From assembly GCF_000724625.1 (NCBI RefSeq), contig NZ_CP007139.1, positions 558,001 to 622,000 on the forward strand: a stretch of 64,000 nucleotides of DNA, in the 5' to 3' direction. The notes under the pieces were generated by a model. That model made no database searches, had not been told where the DNA came from, and worked only from the letters and a program-made list of their open reading frames with translations. Positions 7,230-41,507 of the stretch are shown one piece after another. The DNA comes from Fimbriimonas ginsengisoli Gsoil 348 (GTDB taxonomy: Bacteria > Armatimonadota > Fimbriimonadia > Fimbriimonadales > Fimbriimonadaceae). Within the stretch, counting starts at the first letter, position 1. Each line of letters begins with the position of its first letter. The translations under genes were made by a program, and so were the position numbers.

Positions 7230-9080
7230 ATGGCCAAACTGATCGGAACCGCCGGACACGTCGACCACGGTAAGACCACGCTGATCAAGGCACTGACCGG
7301 CATCGACGCCGACCGCCTTCCCGAGGAAAAGGAGCGCGGAATGACGATCGACGTCGGTTTCGCTTACCTCGATCTACCGGAGGTCGGGCGAGTCTCGATC
7401 GTGGACGTACCCGGGCACGAACGGTTCTTGACCAACATGCTGGTCGGCGCGCTCGGCATCGACGTGGCCCTCCTCTGTGTTTCGGCGGACGAAGCCGTGA
7501 TGCCGCAAAGCCGTGAGCACCTCCAGATCCTGGAGCTTCTGCCGGTCGAGCACTTGGTCGTCGCGATGACCCGAGCCGACCTCGCCGACCCAGAAACCCG
7601 CGAACTGGCCCAAGCCGAGATCGAGGAGCTTGTCGCCGGATCTCGCTTCGGAAAAGCCCCCATCGTCCCCGTCTCCGCCTTCACCGGCGAAGGTCTGGAG
7701 GAACTTAAATCGGAGTTGGTTGGCGCGCTAAACGCGCCGAGCGCCAAACGCCCTAACGCCTCAGCCCCCTGGTACCTCCCCATCGACCGCGCCTTTAGCG
7801 CCAAGGGGCATGGAGTAGTAGTGACCGGCACGCTGGCTCAAGGGCGGGTCTCCGTCGGTGACCGAGCATATCTAGAGCCCGGACATTGGGAAGTTCGCGT
7901 CCGTGGAATCCAAACCCATGGCGAGGCCGAGGATTCCAGCGAACGGGGCCAACGCACCGGGCTTAATCTCTCCGGCGTCAAGTTGGAAGACGTCCGCCGA
8001 GGCATGACCCTCGGGGCTCCCGGCGCCGTTTTTGAGACGTCGATGCTCGACGCTCGTGTGCAATGGATTAAGCCGCCGAAGCACGGTGAGCGGATCCGAC
8101 TCTCGATCGGCGCGGAAGAAGTGATCGGGAAGGCGTTCCTCAACGACGCCGATCCCGAGCTGGCGCAGCTTCGGCTAGAGAGCCCGATCGCCTGCGCCCT
8201 CGACCAACCCCTGATCCTCAGGCGATATTCGCCGCCTCGACTGATGGGCGGCGGTCGGGTGACCGTTCCGCAAGCCAAGGTTCGACGGAAAAAAGAGGAG
8301 ACCAAGAAAGTCGAAGCCCAAGATCTTGGGACCGCAGTGGTTGAAACGGTGGGGGACGATCCGAACGGAGTCTCGACGGAAGAGATCTGCCGTCGGTTGG
8401 GCAAGACCCCGCAGGCGCTCGGAGACGTTTTTGAACAGTTGCGCGAAAAGGATCGGCTTCGCGGCTTTGCCGGGCTCTGGATGACGCCCGAAGGATTCGA
8501 AGCAGGCGCCGACCGCTTCATGGCCGCCCTGACGCAGCAACACTCGAAAACCCCCACCCTCGCCGGAATCCCGCGGGAGCGAGCCGTCCAAGGAGCCGGG
8601 CTTGGCTGGAACGGTAAGCCGCTCGACCGGATCATCTCTGAATTAGCTGCTCGTGGCAAGATCACCGTGAGCGGGACCGCCGTCCGCGACATCGCCTACA
8701 AACCTCAGCTCCCCACACGCCAGCGGGAATTCTTGGACCGGGCGATCGAAGCGATGGAACGAGAGACGGTGAACGTGCCCGGACCGCACGATATCGCCAA
8801 GACGATCGTCGCCCCTCCTCAGGCGATCGAAGAGGTCCTGCGCCTCGGCGTCCAGGCTGGCGAGCTCGTGCAGGTTTTCGAGGGCGTCTTCTATACGGTC
8901 CACCAGATCGAAGCGCTGAAGGCCCGTTTGAAGGACGCTCTCGGCACGAAGCCATTCCCGGCTTCCGAGGCCCGCGACGCCCTGGGCACCAGCCGCAAAT
9001 ATATCATTCCTCTGCTGGAGTACATGGACTCGGTGCGATTCACTATCCGGGTCGGGGACAACCGCGTCATTCGAGGATAG
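7230..9080 (+). CDS. selB: selenocysteine-specific translation elongation factor SelB
   Basis: 616 residues, typical SelB length. The GTPase domain has GHVDHGKTT (residues 9-17), DVPGHERF and MTRADL in place of the usual NKxD/TKxD. EF-Tu-like beta barrels follow ([14 protein letters not shown]), then a C-terminal winged-helix tail of about 250 residues that in SelB binds the SECIS hairpin. SelB delivers Sec-tRNA(Sec) to UGA codons. No selA, selD or selC is seen in this window. A candidate client, an in-frame UGA with a SECIS-like hairpin, is at 34338-34373. The linker after the GTPase domain (SAKRPNAS) is encoded by DNA resembling the CGCC-type intergenic repeats. Confidence 0.95.
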
Positions 9081-27599: not shown

Positions 27600-27707
27600 C
27601 CCTTAAAGCGAATTATCGCGATATTCTGGAACCCGAGGGCAGATGAAACTGTAGTTAGCCTTCAAACCAATTCGCGTAGCGCTTACGTCCAAAGGATGTC
27701 GCCTGCC

Positions 27708-29648
27708 ATGAGTCTAAAGTCCCGCCTTACCGTCCTCGCCGCCCTCGCTCTCTCCGCGACCGCGGCATTTGGTGCGGATCCCCTCAGCATCAGCGTGACC
27801 CCCGCGCTGGAAGGGTTCTCGCCTTCCGCCGGAACCGTCCCTGTTGCGGTGAATCTGCGGAACGACGGGCCGAACGCCCGGGGCGTTCTGCGCGTTTCCG
27901 GAGGCGCCGGGTTCCAAATGGACTACCCGATCGAGCTCCCACGAGGTTCCGTTAAGCGGCTCATCACCTATCCGACTATGGAATACGGCAGCGTCCGATT
28001 CTTATTGGATACGGACCAGGGACGACAGCTAAAGGAATACAACCCAGGCGGTTACGGGAACGAAGGGGGGCGAGCGGCGGTGATGATCTCCGACACCCCG
28101 GGCGAGCTATCGTTCATCAAGGGTGAGGACAAGAGCAGCGTCCCCGCCCCGGTGACTCCGTACGGGGGAAACAATCAAAACTCCATTCAAGACGCCTACA
28201 CCGTTCCTGGGCTGGCTCCTAACCGGCCGGTAGGGTACGCGAACGTCGCCACCGTCTTTCTCGGGTCAGGATCGGAACGGCTGAACGACGAACAGGTCCA
28301 GGCGCTGAAGCTCTACGCACTTGCCGGCGGAACCCTGGTCTTCGTAGGGGGCGCTTCTTCCCCGATCTTGGGAGATGCGCGATGGCGCGATATTCTGCCG
28401 GCGCGGGAGTTCCGGGTTGTCACCCTCAACGATTCCAACGCTTTGGCCAGCCTGGGTGGCGAGGCGGCTCCCCCGGTCAGCGTCACGACCGGAGTGCCGA
28501 CGCCGGGCGCGATCGTTCGGTGGGAAGGCGGAACTCTGCTTACGGCCGAGCGCGGACTTGGGATCGGAAAGGTCATCTATCTCGCCTTCAACCCGTTCGA
28601 ACCGCCCCTCAACCGATGGGATGGACGACGATCCGCGGTGACGAAATCGGTCCGCGTCCTCGACTCGCTTCGCGCCTCGGCTTTCCTACAGCAGTACGGC
28701 GGGCAAAACGGAAATCGGAGCGGTGTGTACGGCGGGTCCACGGCGTATGTCTCGGCCACGATGCTCCCTTCGTCCGGCCACGTGACGATGCCAGCGCAAG
28801 ACCCGTTCAGCACCAAGCTTCCCCCGGCGGAAAAGGTCTTCACCCTCCTCGGCGCTTACTTCGTGGTCGTCGTCCCGCTGAACTTCCTGATCCTAAAGAA
28901 GCTAAAGCGAGGTGAGCTTGCCTGGTTTACCGCGCCACTCATCTCTCTCGGCTTCGCCGGAGCGTTCTTCGCCTCCGCGCAGGATCTCTATTCCGCCCGC
29001 ATGTCCAGCGCGTCTCAGGGGATTCTCATCGCCCAACAGGGAATGGAAGAGGGCCTGTTCGTAGGCGCGAGCCAGATGTTCGTTCCGAGAAGCGGCACTT
29101 ACGACTTAAAGCTAAACGGCGTCGACAGCCTCGGAATCCTGAATACAAACCAGCCCTATTACGGATACGGCGGTCGGCAAGAGCACGACTCGGAGTTCGA
29201 CCCCGTCGACGTGGGCCAGATTATCGTTCCTCGCATGCAGGCGAATAATCTCTCCTTCCGCGAGATCGACTACCGGCAGCGAGTCCCCGTGGGGCGCTGG
29301 TTCTCTCTCGAGACGAAGCGAAGCGGCTCGAACTTGACTTGTGTGGTTCGAAACACCGGTACGTACCGTCTGGAGAACGCTGCGATCCAGGTTGCAGACC
29401 AGGAAACGGAGGTCGGCACGATCGAACCGGGCCAGACCCGCGAAATTAAGGTGAGAATCGCCGACGTTCCGCCGGTCGCCTCGACGGATAACTATTCTCT
29501 TCCGCAGTTCCTCACTCGAAACCGCGGCACCGCCCTCATCGGATCGATCCGCGGCTTCCGCCCCGGACCACAATTGGGTGAAGAAGTCGCCGGCCGCACT
29601 TCTGTTCGGCTTGCTTTGATAGCAAAGGAGGCGTTGGGACCTCGATGA
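27708..29648 (+). CDS. secreted/membrane protein heading the ABC-MoxR-vWA gene set
   Basis: About 646 residues from ATG 27708 (ATG 27696 overlaps the AAAGGA ribosome-binding site and is less likely). Sec signal: KSRLTVLAALALSATAAFGA. An Ig-like region follows, then a Rossmann-like glutamine-amidotransferase-type segment (YALAGGTLVFVGGASSPILG). Near residue 380-430 are two membrane helices (LLGAYFVVVVPLNFLIL; APLISLGFAGAFFAS), then a periplasmic beta-rich domain. Similar proteins accompany ABC-2 exporters (GldG-like). It overlaps the next gene by 4 bp (ATGA). Function unknown; probably an accessory subunit of the exporter. Confidence 0.78.
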   Translation: MSLKSRLTVLAALALSATAAFGADPLSISVTPALEGFSPSAGTVPVAVNLRNDGPNARGVLRVSGGAGFQMDYPIELPRGSVKRLITYPTMEYGSVRFLLDTDQGRQLKEYNPGGYGNEGGRAAVMISDTPGELSFIKGEDKSSVPAPVTPYGGNNQNSIQDAYTVPGLAPNRPVGYANVATVFLGSGSERLNDEQVQALKLYALAGGTLVFVGGASSPILGDARWRDILPAREFRVVTLNDSNALASLGGEAAPPVSVTTGVPTPGAIVRWEGGTLLTAERGLGIGKVIYLAFNPFEPPLNRWDGRRSAVTKSVRVLDSLRASAFLQQYGGQNGNRSGVYGGSTAYVSATMLPSSGHVTMPAQDPFSTKLPPAEKVFTLLGAYFVVVVPLNFLILKKLKRGELAWFTAPLISLGFAGAFFASAQDLYSARMSSASQGILIAQQGMEEGLFVGASQMFVPRSGTYDLKLNGVDSLGILNTNQPYYGYGGRQEHDSEFDPVDVGQIIVPRMQANNLSFREIDYRQRVPVGRWFSLETKRSGSNLTCVVRNTGTYRLENAAIQVADQETEVGTIEPGQTREIKVRIADVPPVASTDNYSLPQFLTRNRGTALIGSIRGFRPGPQLGEEVAGRTSVRLALIAKEALGPR

Positions 29649-30499
29649 ATCGCAACACTTGGGAACAGCTAGTCGTTCACAACCCGATGCTGATCGAGAT
29701 CCAGCGATTTCGCCGTCGGTATCTCTCGTTCGGCGGAAGCAATACGCTGAACAGTGCCGTCCTCGGCCTTGGGTTGGTTTGCTACGCGGGGTTGGTCTTA
29801 ATGGTAATGAACGGCCAAGGGGACATCTCGCCGCTGTGGATCATCATGCTCCAGACCGGCCTCTACACCCTGTTCGCACCAGGCATGCTTCATGGAGCGA
29901 TAGCAGGCGAGCGGGAACGGCGAAGTTGGGACTTGCTCCTAGTGGCGCCGATCACTAAAGCGCAAATCGTCGTCGGCAAATTCATCGGCGCGCTTGCCGC
30001 GCTCGCGGCGGCGACGGCGATGTTTCTCTTCCCCGTAGCAATCGCCGCCGTCACGTACCGAAGAACGAACTGGCACGACTTGCTCCTTTGCGAATTGCTC
30101 TCGATCAGCTTCGCCATTGCGGTTTGCTCGATGACCCTGCTAATTAGCGCGCGAGTGAAGCGTCCGTTCATGGCGCTCGGAGCTAGCCTCGGGGCGCTCG
30201 GCGTCGTGCTGGTCGTGGCTCCCATCCTGCTGGCGGTCGTTTTCTCCACCAGTGGAATGCGCGACGTCGACCTCCTGTATTTCCTTCACCCGTTCTATGC
30301 CCTCGGACAGATCTCCGTTCTCAGCGAGGGGAGCAGCTACGGTCGATCGGGAGGAATGGTCTCTCCCGTCTTCTGGGGCTGGCCACAAATTCTCGTCTAC
30401 CTTGGCTTGTCGGCGGTGATGATCGCTTGGGCATCCAACACGCTGAACTTCGCCGAAAACGAAGTCAAGTTCATCCCTAAGGGCCATCGCGATGCTTGA
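29645..30499 (+). CDS. ABC-2 type transporter permease
   Basis: 284 residues with six hydrophobic segments. The ABC-2 pattern LHGAIAGERERRSWDLLLVAP followed by ITKAQIVVGKFIG is the coupling region after the second helix. It starts at ATGA inside the previous stop and overlaps the ATPase gene by 8 bp. With the ATPase at 30492 and the permease at 31421 it would form an exporter, related in style to GldF or copper-type NosY permeases. Cargo unknown. Confidence 0.88.
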   Translation: MNRNTWEQLVVHNPMLIEIQRFRRRYLSFGGSNTLNSAVLGLGLVCYAGLVLMVMNGQGDISPLWIIMLQTGLYTLFAPGMLHGAIAGERERRSWDLLLVAPITKAQIVVGKFIGALAALAAATAMFLFPVAIAAVTYRRTNWHDLLLCELLSISFAIAVCSMTLLISARVKRPFMALGASLGALGVVLVVAPILLAVVFSTSGMRDVDLLYFLHPFYALGQISVLSEGSSYGRSGGMVSPVFWGWPQILVYLGLSAVMIAWASNTLNFAENEVKFIPKGHRDA

Positions 30500-31421
30500 A
30501 GTAAAGAACCTAAGAAAAGAATACGCGGGCCTTACCGCCGTCAAAGGGGTCTCGTTCAACCTTCAACCGGGAGACATTTTCGGTTTCATCGGTTCTAACG
30601 GAGCAGGAAAGACCACGACGATCCGGATGATCTCGACCCTCCTGGAGCCGACGTCCGGAACCGCAATCCTGAACGGGGCCGACATTCGTAAAGACCCCAT
30701 GGAGGTTCGTCGAATGCTCGGCTATATGCCCGACTTCTTCGGCCTTTACGACGACGTCAAAGTCTGGGAATATCTCGACTTCTTCGCGGCAATCTACCAG
30801 GTTCCCACGCGCCAGCGGAGCGAGGTCATCGACAACGTGCTCGAGCTGACCGACCTCACGGTCAAGAAGGACGCGTTCGTCCAGTCGCTCTCCCGCGGTA
30901 TGCAGCAGCGCCTCTGTCTGGCGCGGTGCCTGGTCCACGACCCGATGCTGCTTCTGCTGGACGAGCCGGCCTCCGGACTCGACCCGCGCGCCCGCGCCGA
31001 GCTGAAAGAGCTGATCGCCGAATTGGGGCGCATGGGCAAGATCGTCATCGTCTCCTCCCACATCCTTCCGGAACTGGCCGACTTCTGCAACACCGTCGGC
31101 ATCATCGAGCGAGGCGAGCTCCTCGCGTTCGGTCCGGTCGAAAGCATCGTTCAGGCGATGCAGCCGAACCGAACGCTCGAGGCACGATTCTTGCGAGACG
31201 CGGGCGAGGCCGCGCGGATCATCCGAGACATGGAAAACGTCCTTTCCGCCGAGGCGACTGGCGACGGCGAGGTTCGGATCGACTACGGCGGCGACCACGA
31301 GGCGCAAGCCGATCTGCTTGCCGAGTTGGTCCGCCGCGGCTTCCGAGTCGTCGGATTCCGCGAAGACCAAGCCGACCTGGAAGATGTCTTCTTGAAACTT
31401 ACGACGGGAGCGGTGAACTGA
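30492..31421 (+). CDS. ABC transporter ATPase
   Basis: 309 residues. Walker A GSNGAGKTTT, signature LSRGMQQRLCLAR, Walker B LLLLDEPASGLD and switch VSSHILPEL are intact. The C-terminal 80 residues form the regulatory tail usual for ABC-2 exporters (FREDQADLEDVFLKLT). It energises the permeases at 29645 and 31421, with which it overlaps: 8 bp at its start and 1 bp (TGATG) at its end, indicating tight coupling. Confidence 0.95.
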   Translation: MLEVKNLRKEYAGLTAVKGVSFNLQPGDIFGFIGSNGAGKTTTIRMISTLLEPTSGTAILNGADIRKDPMEVRRMLGYMPDFFGLYDDVKVWEYLDFFAAIYQVPTRQRSEVIDNVLELTDLTVKKDAFVQSLSRGMQQRLCLARCLVHDPMLLLLDEPASGLDPRARAELKELIAELGRMGKIVIVSSHILPELADFCNTVGIIERGELLAFGPVESIVQAMQPNRTLEARFLRDAGEAARIIRDMENVLSAEATGDGEVRIDYGGDHEAQADLLAELVRRGFRVVGFREDQADLEDVFLKLTTGAVN

Positions 31422-32998
31422 TGGCTATCAACGCGAGCGGCTGGCTTCGGGAAACCAAGGCGGTTTATTTCGATAACGCCACCTCGGTGCGCGATTACCG
31501 GGTACAGCTTCGCGGCAACCGGTCGGTCATCCTATTCGGCGTCTACCTCGTCATTCTGATCGGTGTCGGGATGGTGATCTACGGCCAAACCGCGGGCGTC
31601 GGAGAGATCGAGGTCGTCGAGGCGCAGCGCAAGCTGAAGGATTTCTACGGAATCATCATGGCGCTGCTCGGTGGGCTGGTCTCGCTGATCGCCCCCGCCC
31701 TCACCGCCACCACCGTTGTCGCCGAACGACAGCGACGTTCGCTCGACCTTATTTTCTCCGCTCCGGTTTCGCCGAAATACTTCCTTGTCGGCAAAATGAT
31801 GAGCACCTACCGGTACACCTGGATGCTGCTCATCCTTTCCCTGCCGGTCACTGCGGCGTGCGTCGTCCTGGGCGGCGCATCGTGGGGAGACGTTCTCACC
31901 GCATATCTGCTGCTCTCCGTGCAAGGGTTCATGCTTACCGCGATCGCGCTGCTGCTGTCGACCGTGAGTTCTAAGCCGGTTAGCGCGGTGCTGTGGAGTT
32001 ACATCGCGGCGGCCGCTTACCTAATGCTCACCGCGTCCGCGAGTTCGATGGTCGTCGCTCGAGGCTTTATGTCCGGGGGCGCCGGGTCGCGAGAAGCTCC
32101 CTTTTTCAGTTCGCTCAACCCGTTCCTCGTGCAGATGACGTCGGACACGTACACCTCCGTCGGCTCCTATCACGTGCCGAACTGGTTCTTTACCATCTGC
32201 ATCGCGGCACTGGTCAGTAAGATCTGCCTGCTCTCGGCCGGCGCAATTCTAAGCCCGCGTCCGCAGGAAGAGATACGTAGCCTGCGGCTCCATGCGCTGG
32301 TTTACATGGGAGCGTTCCTGCTCTACCTCACTTGGTCGCAAGCACCGACCAGCGGCATCGGGAACCCCACGAAATACGCAGGTCCTTTCCTGTTCTGGGC
32401 GCTCAGCCCCATGTTTCTCTTCATGCCGTTCCTCTCCTGTTTCGGGGTCGATACGGAGCGGCGCTTCTGGCCGAACGGAGCGTTTAAGCTTCGGCACACC
32501 CTCGACGGCACCCCTAGCGGCGGCTTACCATACGTCTACCTGTTCATCCTCGGCTGCGCCGCCATGATCGGGGCGGGCTTTTGGTTCGGAATCCACAAAC
32601 TGCCCGGTGTGGAGTTCGGCTACTGGCTCCTGTACATCGCCGGTTTCTGGTCTCTCTTCTGGGCAGTTGGACGGTATGCGTCGGCGACCTTCGTCGGGCT
32701 TCGCTCGGCGCGAGCGCTTCAGTTCGCCGCCTTCGTTTTTCTGGTCCTGCTCCCGGTACCCTTCTTCAATTCGCTTACAAGTCACTCGTTGGCGTCCACG
32801 GAATCGTCGATTTGGGATCTATACGTGCTTCGCCCGCTCTTTTTCGGGATCGACCCGACGGCCGACAATTTGGCACTTATTTGGGGTTTGGTTCTCATGA
32901 CGACCGCGGGTGTGGTCGGCTACGCGGCAGAAAGGAAGACTCAGCGTAAGATGGAGCTTCTGAGGCATCGATATGACGGAGATTTCAAAGCGGCTTAG
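31421..32998 (+). CDS. ABC-2 type permease, large
   Basis: 525 residues from ATG 31421, chosen because it couples to the ATPase stop in TGATG and because upstream sequence in this frame is a shadow of the ATPase. About 12 hydrophobic helices are present. The ABC-2 coupling region is TATTVVAERQRRSLDLIFSA and PVSPKYFLVGKMMSTYRY. Length is about twice that of the first permease, so it may carry extra helices for cargo or partner binding. It overlaps the following coiled-coil gene by 26 bp. Confidence 0.88.
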   Translation: MAINASGWLRETKAVYFDNATSVRDYRVQLRGNRSVILFGVYLVILIGVGMVIYGQTAGVGEIEVVEAQRKLKDFYGIIMALLGGLVSLIAPALTATTVVAERQRRSLDLIFSAPVSPKYFLVGKMMSTYRYTWMLLILSLPVTAACVVLGGASWGDVLTAYLLLSVQGFMLTAIALLLSTVSSKPVSAVLWSYIAAAAYLMLTASASSMVVARGFMSGGAGSREAPFFSSLNPFLVQMTSDTYTSVGSYHVPNWFFTICIAALVSKICLLSAGAILSPRPQEEIRSLRLHALVYMGAFLLYLTWSQAPTSGIGNPTKYAGPFLFWALSPMFLFMPFLSCFGVDTERRFWPNGAFKLRHTLDGTPSGGLPYVYLFILGCAAMIGAGFWFGIHKLPGVEFGYWLLYIAGFWSLFWAVGRYASATFVGLRSARALQFAAFVFLVLLPVPFFNSLTSHSLASTESSIWDLYVLRPLFFGIDPTADNLALIWGLVLMTTAGVVGYAAERKTQRKMELLRHRYDGDFKAA

Positions 32999-34751
32999 TC
33001 CCTTCACCCGACGAGTGCGAATCGTACGCTCCTGGCGCGGCCTCGCGATGGGCGCCTGCGTCGGCGCGGCGGCGTCCGCCGTGTGGGCGGCCCTCGACTG
33101 GTTCAACGTCGCCTACACGGAGTGGAGCTGGATGGCCGCCACCGTGGGGATCGCCGCCGCCCTCGGCGCTCTCGCCGGATTCCTCCGACGAGTGCCCACC
33201 GACGCGCTCACGCGGAGCATCGACCGGCGTGCGGACTTAGACGACCGCCTCGCGACCGCGACGGAGCGATCCACCGAACATGGAGCTTTCGACGAAGCCT
33301 TGAAGGCAGACGCGGACCACAGTCTGGATGGCCTGAAGCCGAACAAGATCTATCCGATCCGGGTCGGCCGATGGCACGGCGGCGCGGTCACGCTCTGCGC
33401 CGCAGCCGCGGCGATTTTCCTACTCGGCAACACCCCGATCCTCCTTGGCGAAGATGCGAAGAAGACCCGCGTGGAATTAAAGAAAGAAGGGGCCAAAGTC
33501 GAGCGGATCACCCGCGAGACGCTGGAAACGCCGGAAGCCAAATCCCGGATGACGGAAGCCCAAAAGCGGCTGGCCGACGAACTGCACAAACTCCAGCGCG
33601 ACCTCGACAAAGGCCATATGAGCAAGGAGGAGGCGATGCAGAAGGCGAACGAGATCGCCATCAAAGCCGACCAGCTCATGCGCCAGGAAGCCCAGAACAC
33701 CCTGACGAGCCTCGACAACGCTCAGAAAGCGCTAGAAAAGGCGCAGCAAGACGCGCTCAAGGACGCGGGGATGGCCAACGTAGACCCGCAAATGGCGCAG
33801 ATGTCCGACGACGAGCGGGCCCAAGCGGAGCAGAAGTCGCAAGAGCAGATGAACCAGGCCCAGAGCGGAATGAGCCAGGCCAAGAACCAGCTCAGCTCGC
33901 TTCAAAAACAGCTCGACGACATCAATAAGAAGCTCCAGCAACCCGGCCTCTCCGACGCCGAGCGAAAGGCGCTGGAAGCTCAAAAGAAGAAGCTGGAAGA
34001 GCAAATGAAAGCGCTCCAAAAGCAGCTTTCCGATTTACAGAAGCAAGCCGAGAAAGCGCAAAAGGACATGGAAGCGCTGAAGCTCTCGAAAGAGGCTCAG
34101 GCGGTGATGCAGAAGATGATGCAGAACCCGCTGTACAAGCAGCTTCAGGAAATGGCCGCCAAGCTAAAGCAAAACGCCCAAACCGCCCAACAGCAGGGAC
34201 GACCCGAGATGACCAAAGAGGAGCGGCTAAAGCTCCAGAAGCAGCTCGAGGATCTCATGAAGAAGCTGAAAGACGACAAGGCGATGCAGGAGTACCTAAA
34301 GGCGATGCTGGAAGCAATGAAGCACGCCGGCGGTACGTGAGACGGTAGCGGTATCGGCTGCGGTCTGCAGCCGGGAATGGGAATGGGCAACGGTGACGGT
34401 AACTCGGGAGCCGGAATGGCCGCGCCACCCGTGCCAAGCATGGGCGGTCCGCAGCACGGCGGCCAGTTCTCGAACGCCGACAAGGTGGCGCACGTCGACG
34501 ACGCCTGGAAACAGCAAGGAAAAGGAAATCCCGACATGATCCACGGTAGCCGGCGAACCACGCCAGGTGAGGAGCAGTACATCGAAATCAAAGCCCCGTC
34601 CACCGTCGGAAACCGATCCGCCGTCCCGTATGTCACCGTTCTCCCAAGCTACAAGAAGAAAGCCGAATCCGCCTTGAACCGCCAACAAATCCCCAAAGAA
34701 CACGAAAAGCGAGTCAAGGAATACTTCGAGAGTCTAGGGGGAGGAAAGTAG
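32973..34751 (+). CDS. coiled-coil membrane protein with in-frame UGA, candidate selenoprotein
   Basis: Two N-terminal helices (residues about 23-41 and 52-71) and a third near 133-150 are followed by a Gln/Lys-rich coiled coil to about 445. TGA at 34338-34340 is codon 456. The same frame stays open for 137 more codons: a Gly/Met-rich linker with a cysteine 7 residues on, then a domain ending VTVLPSYKKKAESALNRQQI and PKEHEKRVKEYFESL, which resembles the C-terminus of this protein family in other MoxR clusters. A SECIS-like hairpin follows the TGA. If UGA is read as Sec the product has 592 residues with Sec456 and Cys463. Otherwise it is a nonsense-interrupted gene. Anchored in the membrane beside the ABC permeases; function unknown. 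Confidence 0.75.
34338..34373 (+). promoter_or_regulatory. UGA codon plus SECIS-like hairpin
   Basis: After TGA (34338-34340) come 14 bases, then CGGCTGC, loop GGTCT, GCAGCCG (34355-34373), a perfect 7-bp stem. The E. coli fdhF SECIS starts 11 bases after its UGA and has the core UGC-AGGUCU-GCA. Here the core is UGC-GGUCU-GCA, keeping the three closing pairs and the G-U loop bases that SelB reads. The bulged U of the E. coli stem is absent. Confidence 0.65.
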
Positions 34752-34900: not shown

Positions 34901-35884
34901 ATGCAAGAAGCTCAGTGGTTCCGTGACACTTTCGATGCCGTACGGTCGGAAGTGCAGAAGGCGATCGTCGGTCAGCACGACATTGTGGAAGGGGTGCTCA
35001 TCGGCCTCGCGGCGAGTGGGCACGTGCTCCTCGAAGGAATGCCTGGACTCGGCAAAACCCTTCTGGTTCGCTCGCTCAGTCGAGCCCTGAGCCTCGACTT
35101 CTCCCGTATCCAATTCACCCCGGATATGATGCCCGCGGACGTGACGGGAACGAACGTTCTCAATGAAGGACGCACGTTTGAGTTTCGCCGTGGTCCGGTC
35201 TTCGCCAACATCGTCCTTGCCGACGAAATCAACCGCGCCACGCCCAAGACGCAGTCGGCGATGCTGGAAGCGATGCAGGAGCGAAGCGTCACGGTCGGCG
35301 GTCGCCGCCACGAGCTGACCGAGCCATTTCTCGTTATGGCGACCCAAAATCCGGTCGAGCAAGAGGGTACCTATCCACTGCCGGAAGCCCAGCTCGATCG
35401 CTTCTTTTTCAAGCTCATCGTCCCCTATCCCACCAAAGCCGACCTCGCGGAGGTGGTCGCCAGAACGACCGGCGAGGCGTATGCGGAGCCCCAAGCCGTA
35501 GCCTCCAAAGAAGACATCCTCCGGATGCGGGCCTTGGTCCGGCAGGTGCCGATCGCGAATAACGTTCTCGACTACGGCCTGTCGCTCGTAGTCGCGACCC
35601 ACCCCGAGGGGGAAGGAGCTTCCCCGGTCGCCGGCCGTTACTGCCGATACGGAGCGTCTCCGCGCGGCGCCCAATCCTTGATCACCGCCGGCAAGGTGCA
35701 CGCGCTGTTGGCGGGTCGCTTTAACGTATCGAAAGAAGACCTCAAGAAAGCGCTCAAACCGGTTCTGCGCCACCGGATCATCCTGAACTTCGAAGCCGAA
35801 GCCGATGGAATGACCGCGGACAAGATCCTGGATGAAGTAGGCAGCTTCGTCGACTCACGCGACCGGGACCCCATCAAGGTCTGA
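34901..35884 (+). CDS. MoxR family AAA+ ATPase
   Basis: 327 residues. Walker A GMPGLGKT (about 46-53), Walker B ILADEINRA, sensor 1 MATQNPVEQEGTYPLPEAQL and arginine-finger region match MoxR. MoxR ATPases act as chaperones for vWA proteins, inserting metals or assembling complexes. Here it precedes DUF58 and two vWA genes, the standard MoxR-DUF58-vWA order, and follows the ABC exporter genes. The 149-bp gap before it is filled with repeats, so it may have its own transcript or depend on read-through. Confidence 0.95.
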   Translation: MQEAQWFRDTFDAVRSEVQKAIVGQHDIVEGVLIGLAASGHVLLEGMPGLGKTLLVRSLSRALSLDFSRIQFTPDMMPADVTGTNVLNEGRTFEFRRGPVFANIVLADEINRATPKTQSAMLEAMQERSVTVGGRRHELTEPFLVMATQNPVEQEGTYPLPEAQLDRFFFKLIVPYPTKADLAEVVARTTGEAYAEPQAVASKEDILRMRALVRQVPIANNVLDYGLSLVVATHPEGEGASPVAGRYCRYGASPRGAQSLITAGKVHALLAGRFNVSKEDLKKALKPVLRHRIILNFEAEADGMTADKILDEVGSFVDSRDRDPIKV

Positions 35885-35916
35885 TCGATGGAGTGGAGCC
35901 TTTCAGAGACCACCGC

Positions 35917-35964
35917 GGGGGGCGGACGTCCCGTCCGCCCCCCGGACAACGGGCGTCCCGCCCG
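35917..35964. repeat. two TCC-loop hairpins between moxR and DUF58
   Basis: GGGGGGCGGACG-TCC-CGTCCGCCCCCC (35917-35943) has a perfect 12-bp stem. CGGGCG-TCC-CGCCCG (35950-35964) has 6 bp. Both share the TCC triloop of the composite repeats at 4697 and 27129. Confidence 0.75.
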
Positions 35965-35997
35965 CCTCGATGCTGCCATGCCCCGCGGAGGAAGCCG

Positions 35998-36879
35998 ATG
36001 ACGCAGTTCCTCCTCGAACCCCGCGAGTTTCGACTCCTCGACGGGATGCGCCTGAACCCGCGGAAGTCGTTTCCGGGCCGGGTGCGCGGCGAGCGACTGA
36101 CCCGTAAGAAAGGGATCTCCATCGAGTTCGCCGACTACCGCGAATACTCCGAAGGAGACGACCTCCGGCACCTCGACTGGAACGTTCTCGCTCGCCTCGA
36201 CTCGCCGGTGATGAGAACGTACCAAGATGAAGAAGACCTCGCCGTCCACCTTCTCCTTGACCTCAGTCCGAGCATGGAGTTCGGCGAGCCGAGCAAGCTG
36301 GCGCAGGCGCGGCGCCTCGCCTGCGCCGTCGGATACATCGCCCTCTCCGGCGGCGACGCGGTACTTCCCCGCGCCCTTGGTCCGCGCGAGCCGAACGTAC
36401 GGGCGCTTCGCGGCCGCGCCGGTTTCCCGCGACTATCACAATGGGCCGAAACCGCGCGACCACCCGAGCGGAACCGCGATAGCCTTGCCGCTTCCCTTCG
36501 CGGTTTCGTGAACGCAGGGACCCGAACCGGGATCGCGCTGCTGGTCAGCGATGGAATGGATCCGGAAGCCGCAACCGCCATTCGCAGCCTCGGCGGACGA
36601 GGGCACGAAGTCTGGTTCTTACAGGTTCTCAGTGATATCGAGTTAGACCCCGACCTTGAAGGAGACCTCCGACTCCTGGACGCCGAGAGCGGGTCTCCCG
36701 TGGAGATCACCGCCAACAGCTACGTGCTGAAGGAATATCGTAAGCGGCTGGAGGAGCACAACAACTCTCTCGTCGAGGCAGTTCGCCGAGTCGGCGGGCG
36801 GCACGCGCTTATCCGCGCCGACGAGCCCCTGGAAGCCGTGATCAAGAACGTCCTCAAACGCGACGGGTGGACCCAGTGA
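35998..36879 (+). CDS. DUF58 domain protein
   Basis: 293 residues from ATG 35998; the frame upstream encodes only hairpin-repeat sequence. The DUF58 signature ADYREYSEGDDLRHLDWNVL lies at about residues 45-64. A vWA-like fold follows, with VHLLLDLSPSMEFG, where D88, S90 and S92 form a MIDAS-like motif. DUF58 proteins work with MoxR ATPases and membrane vWA proteins; the molecular role is not settled. The stop overlaps a GTG start of the next gene (GTGA). Confidence 0.92.
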   Translation: MTQFLLEPREFRLLDGMRLNPRKSFPGRVRGERLTRKKGISIEFADYREYSEGDDLRHLDWNVLARLDSPVMRTYQDEEDLAVHLLLDLSPSMEFGEPSKLAQARRLACAVGYIALSGGDAVLPRALGPREPNVRALRGRAGFPRLSQWAETARPPERNRDSLAASLRGFVNAGTRTGIALLVSDGMDPEAATAIRSLGGRGHEVWFLQVLSDIELDPDLEGDLRLLDAESGSPVEITANSYVLKEYRKRLEEHNNSLVEAVRRVGGRHALIRADEPLEAVIKNVLKRDGWTQ

Positions 36880-38696
36880 GCTTTCAAAACGCGGGCGCTC
36901 TGCTGTGGCTGCTCCCTCTCGCGGGGATCGTCGTCCTGCTCTATCTCCTCAAGATGAAACGGCGAGACGTCCGCGTTCCCGCCACGTTTCTCTGGCCGAA
37001 CCGCGTCGACGAAGTCCGGGCCAACGCACTTTTTCAGAAGCTCCGCCCCAGTTGGCTGCTGTTCCTTCAGCTCCTGGCCCTGAGCCTGACCGTTTTCGCC
37101 TTGGCCAAGCCTCAGACCCAGCAGCGCGGGCTCACCGGAGAAGTCACCGTCATCGTCGTCGACAGCTCCGCGAGCATGGCCGCGACCGACGTTCGCCCGA
37201 GCCGATTCGACGAAGCCAAGAGGCTCGCCAAGGAGGCGATTCAAAGCGCGAAGGCAAGTGACCGCATCGCCCTCATTGAAGCGGGACCGACCCCGCGCGT
37301 CGTCTTTCCCCTCGGCAACGACCCGGCTCGTCAGCTCCTGGCTTTAGAGACTCTAAAGGGCACCGACGCCGAAACGGATGTTGGTGAGGCGCTTCGGCTC
37401 GCGAGCGCCTTGGTCGGCTCTCTGGATGGTGCTCGAATCGTCCTTCTTTCGGACGGAGTGTTCAATCCGGTCACCAACTTTTCCCGTGGTAAAGCCGCGC
37501 TGGTGTACGAGCAGATCGGGGAGATGGACGATAACGTGGCAGTCTCCGCGCTGGGACTAGCCGACACCGCGAGCGGGCGGAAGCTGTACGCCGGAGTTAA
37601 GAACTATTCCAGCAAGCCGATGGAGGGGACGTTGACCCTCTACGCCGACGGTAAGCCGATCGACTCGATCAAGACCGGGGCGATCGCCCCCTCGACCCAG
37701 TACGGCCGCACCCTTTCCGCGCCCGCCGGAGCCCGAGTATTTGAGGCGAAGCTGGAGTCCTCGGACCTCCTGAAGTCCGACAACTACGCGGTCGCTCTGG
37801 CCGACCCGGGCGCCTCGCTCCACGTCCTCCTCCTCTCCCGCGGCAATCCATTCCTGGAGCGGGCGCTCACCCTCGATCCCCGAGTCACCCTCGACCGAGC
37901 CACCGAGCTTCCTCCCGAAGAGCGCGGAACCGGGTCTGGCCAGTACGACATCGTCATCTTCGACGGGATTCCGGAGCAGCCGGTGAAAGCGCGCGGCGTG
38001 CTCACCCTCGGAACGGCCGGAAGCACCTCCCCGGTGACCGACGAAGGCATCGTAAAAGGAACCGCCTTTCTCTCCGCCGAACCGAAGCCGCTCATGAACG
38101 GAGTCGACCTGCAGGGGGTCTTCATCGACCAGCAGCACAAGGTTAAGCCGAAGGGGAATGGGCAGGTGCTGGCGGTCAACAGCACGGGTCCGTTGGTTGT
38201 GACCTCCGAATCGGTGGGTCGAAGGCAGATCTACCTCGCCTTCGAACCGCTCCAATCCGACTTCCCGCTGCAGGTTGGCTTCCCGATCTTTGTCGCCAAC
38301 GCACTCGATTATCTCGCCGGAGGCGAGAGCGCGGATCTCATCGCCATCCGAGCGGGCGCTCCCTTCTCCATTCCTTCGACGAAAGGGGCGACGCTGCAGG
38401 CTCCGGACGGCGCGAAAGCGGAGCTAAAACCAACCGGAGCCGTGCTGGTCGTGCGGGAAGCCCGGCGGGCCGGTGCCTACACGTTGGATGTGAGTGGGCG
38501 AAAGAAGTCGGTCTACGCCTACCTTCGCAGCGAGCGTGAGTCGTCCATCGCCCCTGCCAAGAACGTTTTCCTAGGAGGCGGACAGGTTCGGGCGACCGAA
38601 ACGCCTCTGACCTTCTCCGATTTTTGGCGTCCCCTCGCCGTTCTCTGCCTTCTGGTCCTTTGCGGCGAGTGGTGGCTGTTTGCGAGGAGAAGCTAG
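36876..38696 (+). CDS. BatA-like membrane vWA protein
   Basis: 606 residues from GTG 36876 (overlapping the DUF58 stop); GTG 36867 would add three residues. The N-terminus is the BatA-type double-helix domain (ALLWLLPLAGIVVLLYLL; WLLFLQLLALSLTVFALA). The vWA domain has MIDAS DSSAS at about residues 96-100. A beta-rich region and a last helix (LAVLCLLVLCGEWWLF) follow. The bulk would lie in the periplasm. It is the expected partner of MoxR and DUF58. It is followed 3 bp later by the larger vWA gene. Confidence 0.9.
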   Translation: MSFQNAGALLWLLPLAGIVVLLYLLKMKRRDVRVPATFLWPNRVDEVRANALFQKLRPSWLLFLQLLALSLTVFALAKPQTQQRGLTGEVTVIVVDSSASMAATDVRPSRFDEAKRLAKEAIQSAKASDRIALIEAGPTPRVVFPLGNDPARQLLALETLKGTDAETDVGEALRLASALVGSLDGARIVLLSDGVFNPVTNFSRGKAALVYEQIGEMDDNVAVSALGLADTASGRKLYAGVKNYSSKPMEGTLTLYADGKPIDSIKTGAIAPSTQYGRTLSAPAGARVFEAKLESSDLLKSDNYAVALADPGASLHVLLLSRGNPFLERALTLDPRVTLDRATELPPEERGTGSGQYDIVIFDGIPEQPVKARGVLTLGTAGSTSPVTDEGIVKGTAFLSAEPKPLMNGVDLQGVFIDQQHKVKPKGNGQVLAVNSTGPLVVTSESVGRRQIYLAFEPLQSDFPLQVGFPIFVANALDYLAGGESADLIAIRAGAPFSIPSTKGATLQAPDGAKAELKPTGAVLVVREARRAGAYTLDVSGRKKSVYAYLRSERESSIAPAKNVFLGGGQVRATETPLTFSDFWRPLAVLCLLVLCGEWWLFARRS

Positions 38697-38699
38697 CCG

Positions 38700-41507
38700 A
38701 TGCGATTTACGCACCCGCTCTTCCTCGTCCTGCTGATCCCGGTCTTGATCGGGCTTTGGTACAGCTTTCGGCACGTACACGGCATGGCGAGAGGTCGAAA
38801 GCGGCTGGCATTCGGCATTCGATTTCTGCTCGCTTCCCTCCTGATCTTCGCGCTCTCCGGCCCCGAAGCTCGGCGGCCGAACAAGGGGCTCTGCACGATG
38901 TTTCTTCTCGACCGGAGCGATTCGGTCTCCGAAGCCGATCGGAAGCGGGCGGAAACATTCGTCGACGAGGCGATGAAAAAGCTCAGCGCGGAGGACTTGG
39001 CCGGTGTCGTGGCGTTCGGCAAGAATGCGGTGGTCGATGCCGCTCCCGGCGGGCGGCGCGAACTCGGCAAAGTTCTTAGCACGGTCGACGGCGCCGCCAG
39101 CGATTTGGCGGCTGCGACACGGCTAGCCAGCGCCTCGTTTCCCGATGGGAAGGCGCGACGCCTCGTTTTGCTCAGCGACGGTAACGAAACCTCGGGCGAC
39201 CTGGAAGAGGCCGCCCAGGTCGCGGCGACGGACGGAATTCCGCTCGACGTGGTGCCGCTCGGGTTGGAAGAGCGGAGCGGCGAAGCTGCCGTTCTCGGGG
39301 TAGAAGCTCCTACCGAGATTCGTGCCGAACAGCCATTCGACCTTCGGGTCATCGTCGACTCGGCCCGAGCTCAACGAGGGGTGCTAGAGGTAGACCGAGA
39401 CGGGGTACTCCTTAAACGTCTGAACGTATCGCTCACCGCGGGCCGAAACGCCGTCGTCGTAAGCGAAAAGCTCAAAGACGTGGGCTTCCATCGATATCGA
39501 GCCACGTTACACGCCGAGTTCGACGTCGACAATCGAAATAACGTCGGCCTGAACTTCGTCGCCGTACGGGGCAAACCCCGGGTTCTAGTTCTTCAGCAAG
39601 ATCCTAAGGAGACCACTCTTGCCGAGGCGCTTAGGAAGAACGGCCTTGCCGTCGATCTCGGCGGTCCTGCAAGCATTCCGAGCAAGCCGGAAGAGCTACA
39701 GATTTACGATGCGGTGCTCCTGAACGACATCAACGCGGCCTCGATCACGTTGAACCAAATGAAGCTCTTACAAGCCGCCGTACGCGATAGCGGAGTCGGC
39801 TTCGCCATGATCGGCGGCGAGAATTCCTTCCTTCCCGGCGGCTATTACGGCTCGCCGATCGCGGAAGTGCTACCGGTTGATCTCAATATCCGCCAGCGGA
39901 AGACCTTTCCGAGCACTTCGATCCTGATCATCATCGACGCCTCGGGATCGATGTCGATGCCGGAGGACGGCATGAGCAAGCTGCAGATCGCCGGGCTCGC
40001 GGCGGAGCAGACGGTGAAGCTGATGTCGCCGATGGACCGAATCGGCGTGGCGGGCAGTGGCGACGGAATCGAGTTCGTCGCGCCGATGCAGAAGCTGACG
40101 AACAAGCAAGCGGTCATCGACCAGATCCGCCACCTCAGCCAAAGCGGCGGCGGCATCTACGTCCGCCCCTCCGTCGCGCGGGCCAAGGAGGAGCTCGAAA
40201 AGGAGCAAACCCAAGTCCGTCACTTCATCCTCCTCGCCGACGGCGCGGATGCGGAAGACCACGAAACCGCCATCGAGAACGCGGGACTGATGCGCCTCGA
40301 GCACATCACAACATCGGTTGTAGCGATCGGCGATGGGCAAGACGTGCCGTTCCTGAAGCAGCTCGCCGCCGCGGGCGGCGGCAAGTTCTACCTCGCGCTA
40401 AAGGCAAACCAACTTCCCGCCATCTTCACTCAGGACACTTCGATCATGTCTCGCTCCGCGATCGAGGAAGGGGCATTTATTCCGAAGCTGGTGATGGGTG
40501 AAGAGATTCTGAGGGGGATCGCCGACGAGGGCGTTCCTCCTCTTCTCGCCTACGACCTCACCGATTCGCGACCGCTCGCCCGGATGGGCATGCGGACGAA
40601 GAAGGACGATCCGCTGCTCGCGACTTGGCAGTACGGCCTCGGGACTTCGCTCGCATTTACTTCCGACGCACACCCGCGCTGGGCAAAGAACTGGGTTGGT
40701 TGGGCCGGTTTTGGTACCTTCTGGGCGCAGGCGACCCGGGCGATTTCTCGTCGGGCAACCCTAAACAACTACCAGGTGAGTGTCCATCACGACGGCGGCA
40801 AGGGGCACGTACAGGTCAAGGCGTTCGACCGTCTCGGGAATCCTCTGAGCGCGAATAACGCCGTCGTTCGAGTGGCGACTCCGACCGGTGAGTCTCGGGA
40901 TGTACGCCTTTCCCAGGAAGGCCCCGGCGCCTATGTCGGCGACTTCGACGCGTCCGAGATTGGCACCTACATTGTCACCGTCGCCGAACAGGACGCGGTG
41001 GGAGGGCCACGAACCAGCGCAACCGGCTTTTCCCTCGCGTACCCAGCCGAGTACAGGAGCTACCGGACGAACCGGCCACTTCTCGAGAGGGCGGCGGCGC
41101 TGACTACCGGCATGACGTTGACTTCCCCGGCTCAAGCCTTGCGTCCCGTGCCGAACCCCGGGGCGTCGATCACCGAGCTTTGGCCGACGCTGATGTTCCT
41201 GGCCGCCCTTCTTCTGCCGATCGACATCGGAGTTCGGCGGCTGGCGCTGCCATTGGGCGAGATTTTGGCCAAAGTTTGGGCCCGCCTAAGGCGCCGACCT
41301 GCGGCTCCCGTCACCCAGCAAGTCACGGTTGGCCGCCTTCAGCAGGCGAAGCAGAGGGCGCAACGGGAGACATCCCCCGAACCTGCGCCCACGGTCATCG
41401 CGCCCGGACCAACGAAGCCGACCGCCCCGACCCCGCGCCCCACCTCGGGGACCGGAAGCACCGCGAAGGGGTTGCTCGATGCGAAACGAAAGCGAGGTGA
41501 GGAGTAA
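38700..41507 (+). CDS. large membrane protein with two vWA-like domains and a GATase1-like segment
   Basis: 935 residues. Two N-terminal helices (FLVLLIPVLIGLWYSF; IRFLLASLLIFALSG) precede a first vWA with DRSDS at 71-75. A GATase1-like stretch (GFAMIGGENSFLPGGYYGSP) comes next, then a second vWA with a perfect MIDAS (IIIDASGSMSM, about 411-421). After Ig-like sequence, a helix near 830 and a Pro/Thr-rich tail end the protein. Similar proteins (YegL/BatB-like) occur at the end of MoxR clusters. It is the last gene of the set and is followed by an unrelated nuclease gene. Confidence 0.88.
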   Translation: MRFTHPLFLVLLIPVLIGLWYSFRHVHGMARGRKRLAFGIRFLLASLLIFALSGPEARRPNKGLCTMFLLDRSDSVSEADRKRAETFVDEAMKKLSAEDLAGVVAFGKNAVVDAAPGGRRELGKVLSTVDGAASDLAAATRLASASFPDGKARRLVLLSDGNETSGDLEEAAQVAATDGIPLDVVPLGLEERSGEAAVLGVEAPTEIRAEQPFDLRVIVDSARAQRGVLEVDRDGVLLKRLNVSLTAGRNAVVVSEKLKDVGFHRYRATLHAEFDVDNRNNVGLNFVAVRGKPRVLVLQQDPKETTLAEALRKNGLAVDLGGPASIPSKPEELQIYDAVLLNDINAASITLNQMKLLQAAVRDSGVGFAMIGGENSFLPGGYYGSPIAEVLPVDLNIRQRKTFPSTSILIIIDASGSMSMPEDGMSKLQIAGLAAEQTVKLMSPMDRIGVAGSGDGIEFVAPMQKLTNKQAVIDQIRHLSQSGGGIYVRPSVARAKEELEKEQTQVRHFILLADGADAEDHETAIENAGLMRLEHITTSVVAIGDGQDVPFLKQLAAAGGGKFYLALKANQLPAIFTQDTSIMSRSAIEEGAFIPKLVMGEEILRGIADEGVPPLLAYDLTDSRPLARMGMRTKKDDPLLATWQYGLGTSLAFTSDAHPRWAKNWVGWAGFGTFWAQATRAISRRATLNNYQVSVHHDGGKGHVQVKAFDRLGNPLSANNAVVRVATPTGESRDVRLSQEGPGAYVGDFDASEIGTYIVTVAEQDAVGGPRTSATGFSLAYPAEYRSYRTNRPLLERAAALTTGMTLTSPAQALRPVPNPGASITELWPTLMFLAALLLPIDIGVRRLALPLGEILAKVWARLRRRPAAPVTQQVTVGRLQQAKQRAQRETSPEPAPTVIAPGPTKPTAPTPRPTSGTGSTAKGLLDAKRKRGEE

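Follow-up and report, generated by a model that had tools for sequence, protein, structure and literature searches.

The gene at positions 32973-34751 of a 64,000-nucleotide window of the Fimbriimonas ginsengisoli Gsoil 348 genome (NZ_CP007139.1, positions 558,001 to 622,000; all coordinates below refer to this whole analysed stretch) very likely encodes a selenoprotein, in which UGA codon 456 is decoded as selenocysteine (Sec) in a SelB-dependent manner. This reading is supported by the recurrence of the TGA in related genomes, Cys/TGA exchange at the same site, covariation of a SECIS-like hairpin, a complete Sec machinery, and conserved gene order, all of which were shown by comparison. There is no protein-level or selenium-labelling evidence, and Sec insertion in the cell is inferred. 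The features of the gene are as follows.

32973-34751, + strand: predicted selenoprotein gene; product of 592 residues, with Sec as residue 456 (translation, predicted structure, conserved family)
34338-34340, + strand: TGA codon read as Sec, residue 456 (at least 41 genomes share the TGA at this site; relatives carry Cys or Gly)
34355-34373, + strand: SECIS-like hairpin with a 7-bp stem and the loop GGTCT (position scan, Cys control, covariation, match to a model from which it was left out)
34377-34748, + strand: Gly-rich linker and conserved C-terminal tail, reached only via readthrough (invariant columns past the TGA; fused in all Cys homologues)

The 593-codon frame contains a single TGA, followed by 136 residues and a TAG stop codon. 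The coordinates and codon counts of the initial annotation, its hairpin at 34355-34373, and its placement of Cys463 seven residues past Sec456 all held. N-terminal residues 1-160 were predicted to be mostly helical with long hydrophobic stretches, and the family consensus has a conserved D-R-R-A-x-L-x-D-R-L-x-T-A stretch in this part. Anchoring in the membrane via these hydrophobic helices is likely, although this was inferred from sequence alone, without a topology program. A coiled coil was predicted at residues 160-452. Sec456 lies at the start of the Gly-rich linker 455-557, which was modelled with low confidence (pLDDT <50) and is likely to be disordered according to this model. The linker is followed by two conserved helices terminating in RVKEYFESL, and the invariant columns of the family (E565, V581, Y584, and F585) are located 3' of the TGA.

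A search of 101 genomes revealed the protein in 60, 12 of them with TGA at the border between coiled coil and linker. A family profile built from 23 members detected the protein in 161 of the 291 Armatimonadota genomes searched. When the fetched loci were translated, TGA stood at this border in at least 41 Armatimonadota genomes, F. ginsengisoli included, mostly within the local motif [A/P]GG[T/G]-U. A scan of genome contigs with this protein as the query yielded no confirmed relatives, and MoxR was taken as bait in its place. The carriers of the TGA form include Fimbriimonadaceae bacterium CRAIB_MAG79 and Abditibacteriales bacterium SKYG70. None of the homologues sampled outside Armatimonadota had a TGA at the linker, which in these proteins either carries a Cys-rich motif or lacks thiols.

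The initial annotation had named a nonsense mutation of a Cys, Gly, or Arg codon as the alternative, to which a sequencing error may be added. In its favor, the close relatives L013, L014, and L016 have at the aligned column the Gly codon GGA, one base away from TGA. However, at least 40 other genomes carry a TGA at the same border together with the hairpin, and nearly all of them possess selA. Occurrence of the TGA in at least 41 genomes therefore leaves neither a nonsense mutation nor a read error as an explanation, and this alternative, which failed, is all but excluded.

The TGA column was compared with close relatives by pairwise alignment, since, for distant members, the first multiple alignment misplaced U in the Gly-rich linker. 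Close relatives without TGA mostly had Cys at the aligned column (L011, L012, L025, L034, L048, L069, L129, L132, L133, and L135). Gly was found in L013, L014, L016, L144, and L145, two of these five being in genomes with selA. Given the relatives with Gly or without Cys at the site, the residue is dispensable in some lineages. In members without TGA, the density of Cys within 110 residues around the site was 0.0175 vs. 0.0039 in the rest of the protein, a 4.5-fold difference. The exchange was best seen in two sisters of one genus, L109 and L129, which read KAGGT-U-LSSGACALDARQWAE and KACRS-C-QQAGACALDARQWAE, correspondingly. Past its TGA, L109 has the hairpin GCGCGC-TGGAT-GCGCGC. In L129, with TGC instead of TGA, the peptide GACALDARQWAE is unchanged, whereas the stem is broken by synonymous changes, which matches the prediction for a SECIS that is no longer under selection. 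The surrounding thiols vary: UxxC occurs in L062, L113, L118, and L122, CxxxU in L026, and CxxxxU or no nearby Cys in other members of the family. The pairing of Sec456 with Cys463 proposed in the initial annotation is thus not conserved.

Bacterial SECIS elements are hairpins that closely follow the UGA on its 3' side and whose small apical loop contains G (PMC1088965). The perfect hairpin CGGCTGC-GGTCT-GCAGCCG, which begins 14 nt past the TGA, has both properties. A scan of stem strength over every position after the TGA, in which no register was chosen, peaked at +25 nt, where 22 of 32 non-redundant sites were strong; typically, only 3-4 of the 32 were strong in other bins. Strong hairpins within +22 to +28 were present at 31/32 TGA sites vs. 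9/31 Cys sites (Mann-Whitney p 6e-10). The apical loops of the hairpins of TGA forms were mostly GGTC-, AGTC-, or GGTT-like. Across 26 homologous hairpins, with that of F. ginsengisoli left out, the six stem pairs were 96.8% paired, although stem sequences differed between species. Double-sided stem changes numbered 67 against a shuffled mean of 23.0, and shifting the partner by 1-3 columns reduced pairing to 30-46%. Registers in this covariation test were those of the best stem of each hairpin, so the value of 96.8% is inflated; fairer evidence comes from the position scan and the Cys control.

It could be argued that the hairpin arose by chance in GC-rich DNA, and taken alone it reaches only E 0.01 within the gene. 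The model that gave this value, built from the 26 homologous hairpins with this one excluded, nevertheless placed 34353-34375 at the top of 19 matches in the gene (17.7 bits), which is more than chance. Within the window alone, the hairpin is only moderately unusual, and such an E value is no proof by itself; the proof is comparative. With the hairpin recurring beside the TGA in the other genomes, chance origin is also all but excluded. The folding energy of the 48 nt past each TGA differed weakly from that of synonymous shuffles (mean z -0.57), but this test is too blunt because Gly-rich, GC-rich sequence folds regardless. A search of the window against Rfam gave no match above gathering scores, and a permissive Rfam search around the hairpin gave weak chance matches only.

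High hairpin scores at the SECIS position were also observed in two Cys forms, L020 (G002) and L029 (G023), which belong to selA-positive genomes and are near TGA forms. These hairpins are possibly relics of a recent change from Sec to Cys.

The genome is a single contig of 5.23 Mb (99.96% complete). Of the Sec machinery, selB is located within the window.

7230-9080, + strand: selB, Sec-specific elongation factor (NCBIfam TIGR00475, 348 bits with a cut-off of 242; SelB winged-helix domains)

The genome also has one tRNA-Sec gene with the anticodon TCA (73.7 bits), selA (461 bits), and selD (L160, G000:C1, about 2557325-2558227). With selA, selB, tRNA-Sec, and selD present, the genome is equipped for Sec decoding. 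The selD match contains one internal TGA, in frame within the SelD-like motif CAG-U-ASK, and SelD is likely a second predicted selenoprotein of this genome, from a known family. Among its molybdopterin oxidoreductases, no in-frame TGA was found in three open frames, while the TGAs of a fourth stretch (L245) were unresolved.

In the tree set, selA was present with 37/39 TGA forms vs. 37/76 other forms (p 2e-7, uncorrected for kinship). Correction for kinship by independent pairs kept the direction (4.9 vs. 0.1) with a median p of 0.06, and the association is therefore only suggestive. The two TGA forms of the tree set without detected selA, G212 and G255, are both incomplete assemblies, and a third such carrier outside the tree, G160, is a partial assembly. 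The tree requires a minimum of 17 switches between the TGA form and the other forms.

Another reading is that the UGA is a true stop, with a 455-residue protein as the product and readthrough being low-level or regulatory, or with the downstream part being a separate ORF. An ATG at 34377 does open an ORF of 124 residues downstream of the TGA, and some 455-residue product may be expected under selenium shortage, as we infer. On the other hand, homologues with Cys or Gly have both parts in a single frame, conservation within the family is strongest at residues 3' of the TGA, and a true stop requires neither SECIS covariation nor selA. We consider this reading very unlikely. As a separate gene, the ORF at 34377 was rejected, given the fusion in all Cys homologues and the conserved residues past the TGA.

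The initial annotation had regarded both parts as one gene and noted selB in the same window, and both statements held. It had further proposed to inspect the homologous column, conservation of the hairpin, and the presence of selA, selC, and selD. The column holds TGA (41 genomes) or mostly Cys, with Gly in some, which favors Sec; TGA forms keep the hairpin, unlike Cys forms; and the three genes are all present alongside selB. Its Sec reading is thus supported by comparison well beyond the window.

The gene belongs to a run with the following neighbors. Relatives keep the order of the ABC genes and also that of the MoxR, DUF58, and BatA-type vWA genes.

29645-30499, + strand: ABC-2 permease (Pfam; order kept in relatives)
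30492-31421, + strand: ABC ATPase (Pfam; order kept in relatives)
ending at 32998, + strand: second ABC-2 permease (Pfam; overlaps the start of the predicted selenoprotein gene by 26 bases)
34901-35884, + strand: MoxR AAA+ ATPase (Pfam AAA_3, 215 bits)
35893-36879, + strand: DUF58 protein (Pfam DUF58)
36867-38696, + strand: BatA-like vWA membrane protein (Pfam BatA and VWA_2)
38700-41507, + strand: vWA/GATase1-like membrane protein (Pfam VWA and GATase1_like)

In 24 of 25 checked loci (Armatimonadota, Verrucomicrobiota, and others), the family gene is the immediate 5' neighbor of MoxR. Homologues of Verrucomicrobiota (e.g., L175, L183, and L177) share the family and the position directly upstream of MoxR but differ at the linker, where the sampled ones have no TGA and carry a Cys-rich motif or no thiol. 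The order MoxR, DUF58, BatA-domain vWA, and vWA-GATase is that of MoxR/DUF58/BatA-vWA (Bat-like, 'Bacteroides aerotolerance') operons, to which the Fimbriimonas locus adds the putative Sec-bearing membrane coiled-coil subunit directly 5' of MoxR and the ABC-2 transporter. No selenoprotein in MoxR/vWA (Bat-like) operons was described in the literature searched, and to our knowledge none was reported earlier. Deletion of bat in Leptospira biflexa gave no phenotype in tolerance of oxygen or oxidants (PMC3557215); given this result, a connection between Bat operons and oxidative stress is no more than suggestive.

In the proposed mechanism, SelB with Sec-tRNA(UCA) would bind the hairpin at 34355-34373, Sec would be inserted at the UGA at 34338, and translation would proceed through it into the Gly-rich linker and the conserved C-terminal tail, giving 592 residues. 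The membrane-anchored protein likely works with the MoxR ATPase, the DUF58 and BatA-like vWA proteins, and the ABC-2 transporter of the same gene run; its membrane position and contact with MoxR are inferred. Where the coiled coil ends, Sec would replace the Cys of a small thiol motif of relatives (CxxxC, CxxC, or DnaJ-like CxxCxGxG). Sec normally serves redox or metal chemistry. On the flexible linker, it may be a reversible redox switch coupling redox state to the MoxR/vWA machine, an inferred function that could equally well prove right or wrong.

Alternatively, and this remains possible, the inserted Sec may bind metal in a degenerate zinc-finger-like site. Such a site is supported by Sec in DnaJ-like CxxCxGxG contexts, namely CKICQGMGKLGKDGKP-U-ATCDGQG (L123 / L222) and CPECAGGG-U-QGCGGTG (L122), and by CSNCGGWGCAACQGQGWG in the Verrucomicrobial L180. 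Against it, many members offer only one or two thiols or selenols, which would not complete such a site within a single chain, and proteins usually employ Sec for redox chemistry (PMC13188914). The varying thiol contexts fit either function, and we favor the redox switch. A bolder version of the redox switch is that it is phylum-wide and selenium-dependent within a MoxR/vWA membrane machine, with Sec sensing redox state or relaying it to the AAA+ ATPase; in this version, Sec has repeatedly been exchanged with Cys or lost. We are inclined to doubt this version slightly more than to accept it. As a separate observation, Sec inside the DnaJ-like motifs of L123 / L222 and L122 possibly hints at descent of the linker motif from a zinc-finger-like element.

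The protein had no match in NCBIfam, and the family gave stray single-member matches only. Pfam yielded generic, non-specific coiled-coil matches, Foldseek against PDB found nothing at E <= 0.001, and a profile search of PDB sequences returned mainly designed helical or coiled-coil chains, none of them meaningful. Thioredoxin-like or molybdopterin domains were not found in this protein. This family is missing from a 2026 inventory of 119 prokaryotic selenoprotein families; the inventory cites Haft and Tolstoy 2025 and includes the families of that work, none of which is this one (PMC13188914). Searches of the literature for selenoproteins in Armatimonadota yielded unrelated work only. Within this inventory and the literature searched, the statement of the initial annotation that no selenoprotein of this kind is known held. 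With E. coli FdhF, the model of a bacterial selenoprotein with a coding-region SECIS, the system shares an in-frame UGA, a directly 3' hairpin with a small G-containing loop, SelA/SelB/SelC/SelD, and Cys homologues. In contrast to FdhF-type proteins, this one is unrelated to any listed selenoprotein, and its predicted Sec lies where the coiled coil gives way to the Gly-rich linker, which is likely disordered. The decoding mechanism is already known, while neither this kind of protein nor its operon had been linked to selenium within the catalogs searched. A large selenoprotein family, present in one phylum in at least 41 genomes, would be added, whose members ordinary annotation would truncate at the UGA. 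The function of MoxR/vWA operons is an old question, for which the Sec residue offers a concrete handle, and the repeated changes between Sec, Cys, and loss make the family a good natural system for Sec gain and loss.

At the head of the ABC/MoxR gene run, the window encodes a protein of 650 residues (27696-29648) that had no Pfam match and homologues of which occupy the same place in several relatives. Within the TGA-bearing family, four proteins (L054, L100, L119, and L125) have two in-frame TGAs, with motifs such as GGT-U-NSPGGT-U-EG and AGGT-U-KGSGRGHRPHWGFG-U, and likely contain two Sec residues each.
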